Assembly (NCBI GenBank): GCA_902581925.1
Contig: CACHQB010000002.1
Location: forward strand, 1-64,000
DNA from: an uncultured Pelagibacteraceae bacterium
Lineage (GTDB): Bacteria > Pseudomonadota > Alphaproteobacteria > Pelagibacterales > Pelagibacteraceae
Direction: 5' to 3'
DNA length: 64,000 bases
Part shown: positions 22,796 through 27,164 of the stretch, piece after piece
Layout: every line of letters begins with the position of its first letter
How positions within the stretch are numbered: the first letter of the stretch is position 1
Position numbers and translations under genes: made by a program
Notes under the pieces: generated by a model
The model's input: only the letters and a program-made list of their open reading frames with translations
The model's database searches: none
What the model was told of the DNA's origin: nothing

Positions 22796-22904
22796 TAAAA
22801 AAATTTTACTTATTCCTCTTGTTCAATTATAAATATTAGCGTAAACACTCATGAAATTCATTAATGCCCTCGTGGTGAAATTGGTAGACTCAAAGGACTT
22901 AAAA
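22796..22904 (+). repeat. Repeat copy A: tRNA-Leu promoter region plus tRNA-Leu(UAA) 5' half (tRNA part 22866-22904)
   Basis: Matches the intact tRNA-Leu upstream region and first 39 nt of the tRNA (gccctcgtggtgaaattggtagactcaaaggacttaaaa) with few differences, then diverges in the anticodon loop. Confidence 0.95.
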
Positions 22905-22927
22905 GCCGAGGGATAGAAGTTAAAGTC

Positions 22928-22957
22928 AGTCCATAGCAGTCCAAGGTAGTCTAAACA
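22928..22957. repeat. Unit 1 left-end phased boxes: 3 x 10 bp (agtccatagc agtccaaggt agtctaaaca)
   Basis: AGTC at 22928, 22938 and 22948, exact 10-bp period. Confidence 0.8.
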
Positions 22958-23028
22958 TACTATAAAATCTCTTAAGTTTAATCTGGCTTTCAATTAATAT
23001 TGAAAAATAAGAACTATTAATTTGTTCA

Positions 23029-23060
23029 GACTATTACAGGACTATTACATAGAGAGATAA
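23029..23060. repeat. Unit 1 internal direct repeat: 11-bp doublet plus AGAGAGATAA
   Basis: gactattacag gactattacat agagagataa; matches 25725-25756 with 3 mismatches in 32. Confidence 0.9.
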
Positions 23061-23077
23061 TATCATATATTTTTATT

Positions 23078-23866
23078 ATGAAAAACATTCTACTAAATTT
23101 GGTTATTATTTTTATTTTACAATTATTTAGTGTTGTCAATGCAGAGACAGATAAATATAGCAAGTCTGATTTAGATCTAATTAATAAATTTAGTGATTAT
23201 GAAAAAAATTGTAAGCCTGTTGAAAGTAAAATATCTGCAAAACGTGTAATATGCATTAAAGTAACTGATGTTTTGGATCTGGGTGAATTTAGAGAAATCC
23301 AATCTTTTCCAGAGGGAATGTTAAAACAAAAACTTAATTGGACTATGCTTTCTAAAAAAGCAGGGCAAGAAGTCTATTCACTTTTTGTTAAAAGAGGTCC
23401 GCAGTATCATGCTAGATACCCTGGTGCTATGATTTTAGGAATGAGTTGGTACGAGATATTTTATTTAAATCAGTTAAAAAAAAACAAGAAAGTAATTGAA
23501 AGATTTATAACTTTTGGTCCAGATAATTATAAGAAATATAACAACCCTAAAGATCCATTAAATTCAATTAAAGCAAAAAATTTTCCTAAAAAACTTTTTC
23601 AAGAAGATGTGAGAAAGATATCTAAATTAATTAATAACAATAAAAGTAAAATTAAAATGCGAGAAGCATTAGGTTTTAGCAACGAAGACAAAATTGAGGA
23701 TGTGATTAAAAGTCAGTGGATACTTGGAAATTTTTTAAACAACGATAAACTCAAAGCAAAAAAAGTAATACTAGATCCTGAATTAAAAAAAAGAAAGATT
23801 TTAATAGCAAGATATAAAACAGCATTATCAAGGTATAAAAAGAAACTTGAAGAGAAAACAAACTAG
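23078..23866 (+). CDS. Hypothetical exported protein (cargo of unit 1)
   Basis: 262 aa, signal peptide MKNILLNLVIIFILQLFSVVNA; no family recognised. Confidence 0.75.
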   Translation: MKNILLNLVIIFILQLFSVVNAETDKYSKSDLDLINKFSDYEKNCKPVESKISAKRVICIKVTDVLDLGEFREIQSFPEGMLKQKLNWTMLSKKAGQEVYSLFVKRGPQYHARYPGAMILGMSWYEIFYLNQLKKNKKVIERFITFGPDNYKKYNNPKDPLNSIKAKNFPKKLFQEDVRKISKLINNNKSKIKMREALGFSNEDKIEDVIKSQWILGNFLNNDKLKAKKVILDPELKKRKILIARYKTALSRYKKKLEEKTN

Positions 23867-23868
23867 TT

Positions 23869-25698
23869 ATGAATAGTTATTTAAAAATATTTGTATTATT
23901 TTTACTAGTTGGTTTTAATGGTTCATTAAAAGCTCAAACTTTAGAAGAGCTATCTTCTGAAATAAATGAAATTAGAGAAGAAATTTCAAACCTAGATAAA
24001 AGTTCAAATATAGAGGCTATAAAAATTGATAAGTCACTTAAAGAATTAAATAAAGTTTTAGACTTCGTTGAAAAGCAGGTTGATACGAACGATATTGATA
24101 CAGCAATATCAAGCTTAAATATTGCTGAAAAAACTATTCAAGATATTTCAAAAGCTATTCCTGAATTATATTCAGTAGAAAAGGTTAAAGAAGGTAAAGA
24201 GTTTCCTGTTGAGCAAATTCAAGAAGTTATGATTATTTCAAAGAAAATAAAAAAAACAAAAATAAACAAAAATATAAAAATTTCTGAAGATATTATAAAT
24301 GTTAAATCTAAAGGCCTAGATGTTTTAGAGATATCTGATAGTATAAATCAAATAGGTATTAAAACTATTGATAGAAAAGAAATAATTAAATCAATAACAT
24401 TATCTAATCTAACAAATCCAACTTTAAGCGCAAAAGGTAAAAATCTTAAAAATTCTTTAAAGTCAGCAGGATTTTCTGATGATGAAATAAAGGATACTTT
24501 ATATGCCGCTGGCGAAGTCAACAGTCCAACTCTAAGAGGTAATTGGGCTGACAAGCTTAGCCCTCAAGGTCATCGCATTTATGTAAGTTTAGAAAGTGCT
24601 GGATTTTCAGATGCTGAAATAAGAGATGGAGTGTTTGGTGCGGGTGAGGTCGAAACACCAACATTAACAGGAACTTGGAAAGATGAATTAAGTCCTAGAG
24701 GTCATCGCATTTATGTAAGTTTAGAAAGTGCTGGATTTTCAGACTCTGAAATAAGAGATAAAGTTTATGCAGCGGGAGAAATTGATACACCAACATTAAC
24801 AGGAACTTGGAAAGATGAGTTAAGTCCTACAGCTCATGGTATTTATACAAGCATGGAAGATGGTGGTTTTTCAGATGCAGAAATAAGAGATGCACTTTAT
24901 GCAGCAGGAGAAATTGATACACCAACACCAACAGGAACTTGGACAGATGATTTAAGTCCAAAAGCATTTGGTATAGCGTCCTCAATGAAGGCAGGTGGTT
25001 TTTCAGATGATGAAATAAGAGATGCAGTTTATGCTGCAGGAGAAATTGACACTCCAACACTAACAGGAACTTGGACAGATGAGTTGAGCTCAACAGGGTT
25101 TGGTATAGCGTCCTCAATGAAGGCAGCAGGCTTTTCAGATGATGAAATAAGAGATGCAGTTTATGCTGCAGGAGAAATTGACACTCCAACATTGGACGGA
25201 ACTTGGAAAGATGAATTAAGTTCTGCAGGACATGGAATAGCAAAAAGTATGGAAGCAGCTGGATTTGATGATAATGAAATAAGAGATGCAGTTTATGCTG
25301 CAGGAGAAATTGAAACCCCAACATTGGACGGAACTTGGAAAGATGAATTAAGTTCTGCAGGACATGGAATAGCAAAAAGTATGGAAGCAGCTGGATTTGA
25401 TGATAATGAAATTAAAGATGCTGTTTACGCAGCAGGAGAAATTGATGCCCCATCTTTAACTGGTAGCTGGAAGGATGAACTAAACTCAGCTGGTCATGGT
25501 ATTGCTACTGCGATGGAGTCGGCTGGATTTAGCCAAGATGAAATAAGAGATGCTGTTTATGCTGCTGGTCATATTGATTCACCAACTCAAACTGGCACTT
25601 GGATGGATGAATTATCTCCTCAAGAACATGGTGTTGCTACTAGTTTAAAATCGGCTGGCTTTTCAGATCAAGAAATAAAAGATCACTTTGGAAAATGA
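23869..25698 (+). CDS. Exported tandem-repeat protein (cargo of unit 1)
   Basis: 609 aa, signal peptide MNSYLKIFVLFLLVGFNGSLKA, coiled-coil-like N-terminal region, then ten GF(S/D)xxEI motifs at a 44-aa period. Confidence 0.85.
   Translation: MNSYLKIFVLFLLVGFNGSLKAQTLEELSSEINEIREEISNLDKSSNIEAIKIDKSLKELNKVLDFVEKQVDTNDIDTAISSLNIAEKTIQDISKAIPELYSVEKVKEGKEFPVEQIQEVMIISKKIKKTKINKNIKISEDIINVKSKGLDVLEISDSINQIGIKTIDRKEIIKSITLSNLTNPTLSAKGKNLKNSLKSAGFSDDEIKDTLYAAGEVNSPTLRGNWADKLSPQGHRIYVSLESAGFSDAEIRDGVFGAGEVETPTLTGTWKDELSPRGHRIYVSLESAGFSDSEIRDKVYAAGEIDTPTLTGTWKDELSPTAHGIYTSMEDGGFSDAEIRDALYAAGEIDTPTPTGTWTDDLSPKAFGIASSMKAGGFSDDEIRDAVYAAGEIDTPTLTGTWTDELSSTGFGIASSMKAAGFSDDEIRDAVYAAGEIDTPTLDGTWKDELSSAGHGIAKSMEAAGFDDNEIRDAVYAAGEIETPTLDGTWKDELSSAGHGIAKSMEAAGFDDNEIKDAVYAAGEIDAPSLTGSWKDELNSAGHGIATAMESAGFSQDEIRDAVYAAGHIDSPTQTGTWMDELSPQEHGVATSLKSAGFSDQEIKDHFGK
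24450..25695 (+). repeat. In-frame tandem repeat, 132-bp (44-aa) period, about 9 full units plus a partial
   Basis: GF codons at about 24469, 24601, 24733, 24865 and onward, spaced 132 bp; two adjacent units (about 25190-25284 and 25322-25416) almost identical at DNA level. Confidence 0.95.
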
Positions 25699-25724
25699 TT
25701 TATCTTTATAGGATAATCTGGGAT

Positions 25725-25756
25725 AACTATTACAAGACTATTACACAGAGAGATAA
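25725..25756. repeat. Unit 1 terminal direct repeat: 11-bp doublet plus AGAGAGATAA
   Basis: aactattacaa gactattacac agagagataa; partner of 23029-23060. Confidence 0.9.
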
Positions 25757-25868
25757 ATTAAAAAAATTTTACTTATTAGACTTGTTCAATTATAAATATT
25801 AGCATAAATACTCATGAAATTCATTAATGCCCTCGTGGTGAAATTGGTAGACACAAAGGACTTAAAAT
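25746..25868 (+). repeat. Repeat copy B: right-end box, tRNA-Leu promoter and tRNA-Leu(UAA) 5' half (tRNA part 25829-25868)
   Basis: 123 bp matching 26996-27118 with 3 mismatches; tRNA similarity stops in the anticodon loop after cttaaaat. Confidence 0.97.
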
Positions 25869-25890
25869 AGTTTGAATTGAAGGATTTCCG

Positions 25891-25920
25891 AGTCTCTAAT
25901 GGTCTCTAATAGTCTTAATC
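25891..25920. repeat. Unit 2 left-end phased boxes: 3 x 10 bp (agtctctaat ggtctctaat agtcttaatc)
   Basis: AGTC/GGTC/AGTC at 25891, 25901 and 25911, exact 10-bp period. Confidence 0.85.
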
Positions 25921-25991
25921 CCTTATAATCCTATATGTTTTTAAATAATTAAATTATTTTTATTGGAAAATCTTTATAATTAATTTTCAGT

Positions 25992-26023
25992 TTCTCGGAA
26001 CAAACTCGGAAACAGAGAGATAA
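25992..26023. repeat. Unit 2 internal direct repeat: 11-bp doublet plus AGAGAGATAA
   Basis: ttctcggaaca aactcggaaac agagagataa; matches 26975-27006 with 3 mismatches in 32. Confidence 0.9.
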
Positions 26024-26050
26024 ATTTATGTTATATATTAACTCTTAAAT

Positions 26051-26233
26051 ATGAATAAAATTTTAGACTCTAAATTTATACCTTTAATAATATTTATTAT
26101 TTTAGTCCTTATAAACATAGATGCTCACCTTAATGATGGCTCTATTACTGGTTTGAATAGAGAGGGTTATATATTACCATTTGCAACTATAATAGCATTT
26201 ATCTATTCATTGGGTGTTTTTTTCAAAAAATGA
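26051..26233 (+). CDS. Small membrane protein, unit 2 cargo 1
   Basis: 60 aa with two hydrophobic segments (FIPLIIFIILVLINI; ILPFATIIAFIYSLGVFF); ATGA overlap with next gene. Confidence 0.6.
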   Translation: MNKILDSKFIPLIIFIILVLINIDAHLNDGSITGLNREGYILPFATIIAFIYSLGVFFKK

Positions 26234-26646
26234 AAATAAATAGTAATATACTAATATTTAGAAACTTAATAAAATATTATTTTTTAATATTCATTTTATT
26301 TTTAATTAAGGCATTTTTTTTCCCAGATGTATTTGTGCCAGAAGATTTAAAGTTTGTAATTAGAAAATATGAAGATGAAGTAATGACATACAGCTATCCA
26401 ATTGTATTAGCTGGAATATTATTTGCATTTATCTACCTTTTTTCATTTTTTATGCTTTATAAATTAAAAAAGAATTGGAGGATTATCCATATAATATCGT
26501 TAATTGTTACTTTGGTTTGCTTACTTGAGTACAGGTTTTCATTTGTTGACTCATTTGATTTTATATTTGAGGGTTTAATGTTTATGTTAGATGGTGCCAT
26601 AATATCTTTAGCTTTTTTTGGGACTGTTTCAAAAGAATTTAAATGA
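26230..26646 (+). CDS. Small polytopic membrane protein, unit 2 cargo 2
   Basis: 138 aa with about four predicted TM segments; ATGA overlaps with both neighbours. Confidence 0.65.
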   Translation: MKINSNILIFRNLIKYYFLIFILFLIKAFFFPDVFVPEDLKFVIRKYEDEVMTYSYPIVLAGILFAFIYLFSFFMLYKLKKNWRIIHIISLIVTLVCLLEYRFSFVDSFDFIFEGLMFMLDGAIISLAFFGTVSKEFK

Positions 26647-26945
26647 AGAAATCAATATTCGAGATTATTTTTATAATTTTTACATCCTTAGTACTTCTTG
26701 GTGTAACTTATTATTCAATAAATGGCAGTTTTGTACTTTGGAATAAAGAACCAACTTTCATAGATATATCTAATAGATCTGGATCGGGTACCCTTTTGAT
26801 AATTGTTAGCAATTTTCTTTATAGTATGTTTGGCATTTATGCCAATAAAGTAGCATCTGTTTGTTTATTCGCATTAGGTTTTTACTCATTTATCGTTTTT
26901 GTTTTATCAACAATAGGTAATATTGAAAATTTTAAAAAAAGATGA
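26643..26945 (+). CDS. Small membrane protein, unit 2 cargo 3
   Basis: 100 aa, hydrophobic termini (IIFIIFTSLVLLGVTYYSI; SVCLFALGFYSFIVFVLSTI); ATGA overlap with upstream gene. Confidence 0.65.
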   Translation: MKKSIFEIIFIIFTSLVLLGVTYYSINGSFVLWNKEPTFIDISNRSGSGTLLIIVSNFLYSMFGIYANKVASVCLFALGFYSFIVFVLSTIGNIENFKKR

Positions 26946-26974
26946 ATTAGATATCATCTAGGATTTTATAGGAT

Positions 26975-27006
26975 AACTCGGAACTAACTCGGAAACAGAG
27001 AGATAA
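26975..27006. repeat. Unit 2 terminal direct repeat: 11-bp doublet plus AGAGAGATAA
   Basis: aactcggaact aactcggaaac agagagataa; partner of 25992-26023. Confidence 0.9.
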
Positions 27007-27118
27007 AATAAAAAAATTTTACTTATTAAACTTGTTCAATTATAAATATTAGCATAAACACTCATGAAATTCATTAATGCCCTCGTGGTGAAATTGGTAG
27101 ACACAAAGGACTTAAAAT
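26996..27118 (+). repeat. Repeat copy C: right-end box, promoter and 5' half of the intact tRNA-Leu
   Basis: 123-bp match to copy B. Confidence 0.97.
27018..27046 (+). promoter_or_regulatory. Putative sigma70-type promoter of tRNA-Leu (copies at 22805-22833 and 25768-25796)
   Basis: TTTACT, 17-bp spacer, TATAAA; same spacing in all three repeat copies. Confidence 0.6.
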
Positions 27119-27164
27119 CCTTGCCGCTTGCGGAGTGCCAGTTCGAGTCTGGCCGAGGGCACCA
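27079..27164 (+). tRNA. tRNA-Leu (anticodon UAA), CCA encoded
   Basis: Acceptor GCCCTCG/CGAGGGC; anticodon arm AAGGA-CTTAAAA-TCCTT; variable arm; TTCGAGT T-loop; ends ACCA. Confidence 0.97.

Follow-up and report, generated by a model that had tools for sequence, protein, structure and literature searches.

The window, that is, the whole 64,000-nucleotide stretch of DNA analyzed here, is part of contig C2 in a genome bin of the SAR11 type (Pelagibacteraceae) and contains two tandem units upstream of an intact tRNA-Leu(UAA) gene (Table 1). Each unit starts after a tRNA-Leu 5′ fragment and ends with a 108-bp repeat comprising the tRNA upstream region and 5′ half, three copies of which are present (22797-22904, 25760-25867, and 27010-27117). 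Given this layout, integration swaps the promoter region and 5′ half of the tRNA gene for copies borne by the element, with the boundary of the repeat pointing to the anticodon arm (AAGGA-CTTAAAA-TCCTT) as the crossover region. The units span only 1.2-3 kb and carry nothing but cargo. The scattered Pfam hits of the second ORF of unit 1 look to be driven by its tandem repeats, and the three ORFs of unit 2 probably encode membrane proteins. Just inside each left end lie three AGTC-type repeats with a 10-bp period; a similar triple repeat is also seen at a protein-gene integration site considered below.

Table 1. Features of the two tandem units and of the adjacent tRNA-Leu(UAA) gene in the window.
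Feature	Position	Strand	Remarks
tRNA-Leu(UAA) 5′ fragment	22866-22904	+	attL core of unit 1; 3′ end is anticodon arm ...CAAAGGACTTAAAA
Unit 1	22905-25867	+	Integrase-less cassette; right end with own copy of tRNA promoter region and 5′ half
Unit 1 left-end repeats	22924-22954	+	AGTCC/AGTC, 10-bp period, near core (class A left end)
Unit 1 left arm doublet	23029-23050	+	Putative arm sites; box CTATTACA, twice
AGAGAGATAA	23051-23060	+	Adjoins unit 1 left doublet
Unit 1 cargo ORF 1	23078-23866	+	262 aa; no Pfam match
Unit 1 cargo ORF 2	23869-25698	+	609 aa; tandem repeats of ~36 aa
Unit 1 right arm doublet	25725-25746	+	Putative arm sites; box CTATTACA, twice
AGAGAGATAA	25747-25756	+	Adjoins unit 1 right doublet
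Element-borne tRNA upstream region and tRNA-Leu 5′ fragment	25760-25867	+	attL core of unit 2
Unit 2	25868-27117	+	Integrase-less cassette
TTTCCGAG	25885-25892	+	Overlaps unit 2 left-end repeats; chance match
Unit 2 left-end repeats	25891-25917	+	AGTCTCT, 10-bp period
Unit 2 left arm doublet	25992-26013	+	Putative arm sites; box CTCGGAA(A/C), twice
AGAGAGATAA	26014-26023	+	Adjoins unit 2 left doublet
Unit 2 cargo	26051-26945	+	Three small hydrophobic ORFs (60, 138, and 100 aa); no Pfam match
Unit 2 right arm doublet	26975-26996	+	Putative arm sites; box CTCGGAA(A/C), twice; conserved TATAGGATAAC just before
AGAGAGATAA	26997-27006	+	Adjoins unit 2 right doublet
Intact tRNA-Leu(UAA)	27079-27164	+	Promoter region and 5′ half supplied by unit 2; 3′ half chromosomal (attR)

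The cargo of each unit is flanked by 22-bp doublets in which a box occurs twice, each doublet being followed by the 10-mer AGAGAGATAA. In unit 2, doublet and 10-mer read TTCTCGGAACA-AACTCGGAAAC-AGAGAGATAA (25992-26023) and AACTCGGAACT-AACTCGGAAAC-AGAGAGATAA (26975-27006), precisely as a preliminary description of this DNA had reported, while in unit 1 they read GACTATTACAG-GACTATTACAT-AGAGAGATAA (23029-23060) and AACTATTACAA-GACTATTACAC-AGAGAGATAA (25725-25756). The 10-mer is, as also described, common to both units while the doublet changes. Taken by itself, however, AGAGAGATAA is not a specific marker, since without the doublet it occurs at chance level: it occurs exactly eight times in the entire genome bin when no mismatch is allowed, four times without a doublet, and the count of copies with one mismatch within the window is that expected by chance. 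Together, the doublet, the 10-mer, their fixed distance to the tRNA core and their repetition at both ends are far from chance. Of 397 Pelagibacteraceae genomes, 54 contained matches to a 61-bp pattern in which the 22-bp doublet was left free, amounting to 65 right ends, and the reversed pattern, used as a control, yielded no match in the same genomes. The 65 right ends carry 23 different 7-bp boxes. In tRNA-Leu units, the right doublet lies 109-111 nt upstream of GTGGTGAAATT and the left doublet 121-126 nt, mostly 124-126 nt, past the core.

The agreement between the two ends of a unit was considered in arrays from 27 further genomes, together with single-copy sites from others. Of the tRNA-Leu units, 27 have a clean doublet on the left as well as on the right, and in 26 of these the left and right boxes matched, 25 being scored as such by script (7 or 8 of 8 positions) and one, L058_u2, being added after inspection, its apparent mismatch having proved to be an artefact of a 1-nt register shift. 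L047_u1 is a true mismatch between clean doublets; a second mismatched unit, L051_u1, has a weaker left doublet. The mean left/right match was 7.44/8, as compared to 5.96 in the best of 100,000 partner shuffles. The proposal that the variable box co-varies between the two ends of one unit was thus borne out, with the random mismatching that would have spoken against it being absent. Across units, the four copies of the box agree in 81-96% of cases at positions 2-9, whereas at spacer positions 1, 10, and 11 they agree in only 7%, 52%, and 4%, respectively. Such conservation of the boxes next to changing spacers speaks for sites bound by a protein and against a simple duplication. The preliminary description had also named TTTCCGAG, at the left end of unit 2, which would be a third site. 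Although present, this sequence matches only by chance: within left ends, the reverse complement of a unit's own box reaches a best match of 5.15/8 on average, against 5.09/8 for the boxes of all units.

A pattern search revealed TATAGGATAAC-plus-doublet ends at two further sites, namely, tRNA-Ser(UGA) (L169, with CTCTAACG; L170, with CTTGTACG; and L173) and a protein gene, at its 5′ end (L171 and L172). At both, the left box matches wherever both ends could be read. Integrase-bearing elements are likewise found at tRNA-Ser (L163, with CTTGAGAC at both ends) and at the protein gene (L165). In L171, L172, and L165, it is the 5′ end of this uncharacterized gene (VNKENASKLWKMIQEAGDY..., with no Pfam hit) that serves as integration site, the element resupplying the start. 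Since AGAGAGATAA is absent from the tRNA-Ser ends although doublets are present there, the 10-mer is a feature of the site class and not the crossover core. Of the constant core and variable recognition half originally proposed, it is therefore the variable half that stands; the common core is not AGAGAGATAA but the tRNA anticodon arm.

Elements bearing an integrase also occupy the tRNA-Leu site. Viral contigs that share the tRNA fragment (L113, of 7.8 kb with a direct terminal repeat, L130, L136, and L138/L140) and elements of the same type in SAR11 genomes (L056/L142/L150, L151, and L152/L162) all present the same doublet pair, together with a tyrosine recombinase of 544-551 aa, the left doublet overlapping the first codons of the int gene. 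These relatives are about 8-9 kb long, with integrase, DUF5906 primase, RusA-like protein and tRNA target; L113 is one that encodes both the primase and the RusA-like protein. PF00589 matches all seven aligned members of the integrase family. Of the full-length integrase model, only the N-terminal domain and some of the catalytic region are confident. For the former, three strands and a helix are confidently predicted (pLDDT ~80), for which the best domain-sized structure matches are the arm-type binding domains of the HPI, HAI7, and P4-like integrases (TMt of 0.73, 0.54, and 0.68 for PDB entries 3jtz, 3ju0, and 3rmp, respectively, at a sequence identity of only 15-19%). No Pfam arm-binding family matched this domain. 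A tblastn search of 50,697 phage records for named phages as a source of the integrase returned nothing. For the distant integrases L144/L165 and L153/L163, at other targets, repeated boxes likewise coincide with the first codons or lie shortly upstream of them (CTAG-type in L144 and CTTGAGAC in L153).

At the level of sequence, the box tracks the N-terminal domain of the integrase and not the catalytic part. In a partial Mantel analysis, box and N-terminal domain were correlated given the rest of the protein (r = 0.72, p = 0.0016), whereas box and rest were not given the N-terminal domain (r = 0.10, p = 0.32), figures that reflect seven main-family integrases and few independent events. Pairwise comparisons, the pairs not having been chosen blind, point to the N-terminal domain as a swappable, hypervariable module. 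L151 and L152 are 95% identical past alignment column 150 and about half identical before it, and their boxes are CCAGTACC and CCAGCACA, the first box copy at the left end of the L152 element being degenerate. Between P0001, the integrase of L113, and that of L130, strands b2-b3 show 11 differences in 20 residues, as opposed to 37 in 500 elsewhere (Fisher 1e-7); the rest is 95% identical, and one box base is changed (CTAGGGTC vs. CTAGGATC). P0001 and L140, which have the same box, differ at 2 of the 20 b2-b3 residues. L136 combines an L142-like N-terminal domain with an L113-like catalytic part, and its box is closer to that of L142 (CTAGAAAC). In a second phage-like family, L133 and L135 (GTTGCCC/GTTACCC) are identical at 379 of 393 positions after column 125 and at 69 of 125 before it.

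No recombinase was detected in the window units by a PF00589 search. When the same search was applied to 28 array genomes, an integrase was found inside the array in G248 only, the remaining genomes having at most one Xer-like protein of 307-326 aa, away from the arrays; PF00589 is, however, weak for this integrase family, having missed the distant integrase of G182, such that a divergent recombinase in a cassette could escape it. A profile built from the integrase alignment (A3) recovered only L056_u1 among 165 unit ORFs. As the window units contain no integrase, they are probably mobilized in trans, by an integrase matched to their box. Indeed, the boxes of five of the six tRNA-Leu integrases recur on integrase-less cassettes (P = 0.03).

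Taken together, these findings argue, with a probability of roughly 0.8, for the doublets being paired integrase arm-type sites, with the anticodon arm of tRNA-Leu as core and with the box setting which trans-acting integrase serves the cassette. In each 22-bp doublet, a tyrosine integrase of the phage type would bind two 11-bp arm-type sites through its N-terminal domain, with strand exchange occurring at the core in the anticodon arm. The two tandem cassettes of the window would each consist of cargo and an attP-like pair of ends without a recombinase, and their excision or integration would require an integrase supplied in trans with an N-terminal domain that reads their box, possibly from satellite-like elements that target the same tRNA. 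The boxes at the two ends would match because one integrase must bind both arms. The sequences themselves show the architecture, the matching of the boxes, the covariation of integrase and box and the lack of an integrase in the cassettes; that the sites are bound, that the cassettes are mobilized in trans and which integrase serves the two window boxes is what we infer. Each cassette would thus probably bear an address tag that decides which integrase can move it.

The main rival, improbable but the strongest of those considered, is that the cassettes are dead relics, i.e., former satellites that have lost their integrase and whose ends persist without being mobile. In keeping with this, cassette L065_u1 and satellite L152 have near-identical left ends, as do L059_u1 and L150, two units are composite or mismatched, and integrases are rare in host genomes, relatives, some of them weak, being found in 5 of 397 genomes of the family and 9 of 399 of the genus, where cassettes are common. 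Yet the boxes of a unit stay matched while the adjacent spacers drift, as expected were function selected for. Moreover, the same box accompanies unrelated cargo, similar cargo is found with different boxes (L049_u1/L057_u1 and L050_u1/L054_u1), and the occupants differ between genomes with flanks that are 75-88% identical, all of which speaks against relics. As for recent cassette transfer, this was not shown by L042_u2 and L046_u1, the only two cassettes seen to share their cargo, which are 83% similar, as against 82% for their flanks.

Somewhat less probable is that the box acts in exclusion, such that a box already present in an array bars further elements that carry it. The preliminary description had raised the question of whether tandem neighbors always differ, with immunity or compatibility groups as a possible meaning, and they do, with none of 11 neighboring pairs sharing a box; at the observed box frequencies, however, random draws give the same outcome with P = 0.45, so that exclusion is indistinguishable from chance, and no mechanism for it is indicated. 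A compatibility group is better read as compatibility with a particular integrase. Very improbable is that the doublets are operators or iteron-like replication sites for an element-specific regulator and unrelated to integration: element-specific tandem 11-bp repeats would fit this too, but no regulator common to the cassettes was seen, the distance to the recombination core is near-constant at both ends within each site class, and the boxes follow the N-terminal domain of the integrase. Finally, target-site duplication or gene conversion between direct repeats, which the doublets are and which homologous exchange would keep alike, hardly accounts for the match between the ends, because the whole stretch would then be copied, yet the spacers between and beside the boxes differ among copies in nearly every unit. 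All told, the original observation was confirmed and the main idea of its interpretation, namely, that the box is a variable module for recognition, alike at both ends of a unit and exchanged from one element to another, was right; AGAGAGATAA as core and the third site were wrong, and immunity is not supported.

If the doublets are indeed integrase arm sites, then their closest parallels are heterobivalent attachment sites. In these, the core is identical in element and host target, and repeated arm sites lie on both sides of the core at a fixed distance; both properties are seen here, the former in the 108-bp repeat that ends in the anticodon arm, with the intact tRNA to the right. Related elements have an integrase whose N-terminal domain, judging from covariation and a predicted fold match, may read such arm sites, with none of the integrase elements collected having the window boxes CTATTACA or CTCGGAAA. 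As with the heterobivalent integrases of lambda and of Cluster K mycobacteriophages, where 11-bp arm sites come in pairs and a variable site base is tied to two candidate N-terminal residues (PMC3203893), pairs of 11-bp repeats flank the core and would be read by an N-terminal domain. Unlike in those phages, many boxes are found at one attachment site, the N-terminal domain appears modular and the sites are also present on elements without an integrase. The HPI, HAI7, and P4-like arm-binding domains are predicted to share their fold with the N-terminal domain of the SAR11 integrases.

Of the marine satellites PICMI, VEIME and Tycheposon (PMC10803314; PMC10872708), it is the integrase-bearing relatives, some occurring among viral contigs, that are reminiscent, and not the window units, given their small size and cargo-only content. 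PICMI are defined by int, AlpA, DUF5906/DUF3987 primase and Fis genes (PMC10803314; PMC10872708), none of which is found in the window units; L113 has int and DUF5906, with no Pfam hit to AlpA or Fis among the proteins scanned. Tycheposons and VEIME are tRNA-integrated elements with a tyrosine recombinase of their own, which the window units do not have. In having recombination sites but no recombinase, the latter resemble hitcher elements, such as CALIN cassette arrays and MITEs (PMC11389934), being non-autonomous, arrayed as in CALIN and presumably moved by the recombinase of another element. Their layout, a tRNA core with putative arm sites of several specificities per array, differs from that of the attC hairpins recombined by IntI in integron cassettes and from that of terminal inverted repeats. 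A non-exhaustive literature search found no description of these SAR11 cassettes.

In a broader reading, to which we give even odds, cargo is exchanged across SAR11 populations by cassettes that parasitize the integrases of satellites through a code relating the b2-b3 face of the swappable integrase N-terminal domain to the 8-bp box, with arrays serving as libraries of cassettes, each served by a different helper. If the arm-site explanation is right, it offers a concrete, testable route for cassette movement, with the 8-bp box predicting which integrase moves which cassette, and nature would already provide a set of integrases that vary in their N-terminal domain, each alongside its own target site.

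Other elements were also encountered at tRNA-Leu. Four units (L060_u2, L064_u2, L066_u1, and L067_u2) are of another type, with TAGTGTAGTTCTAGTGTAG doublets at both ends, closer to the core; the first three encode uncharacterized proteins of ~400 aa. In the viral contigs L116, L118, and L139, the repeats that flank tRNA-Leu fragments are of another kind, which suggests that this site is shared by further integrating elements. Lastly, T4-like phage genes (PhoH and homing endonuclease) are found on a viral contig that includes the right end of a cassette (L121:4380-5129; box CCTGTACA), in which the tRNA upstream region and tRNA-Leu fragment are followed by non-tRNA sequence, corresponding to either a phage-carried cassette or an assembly chimera.
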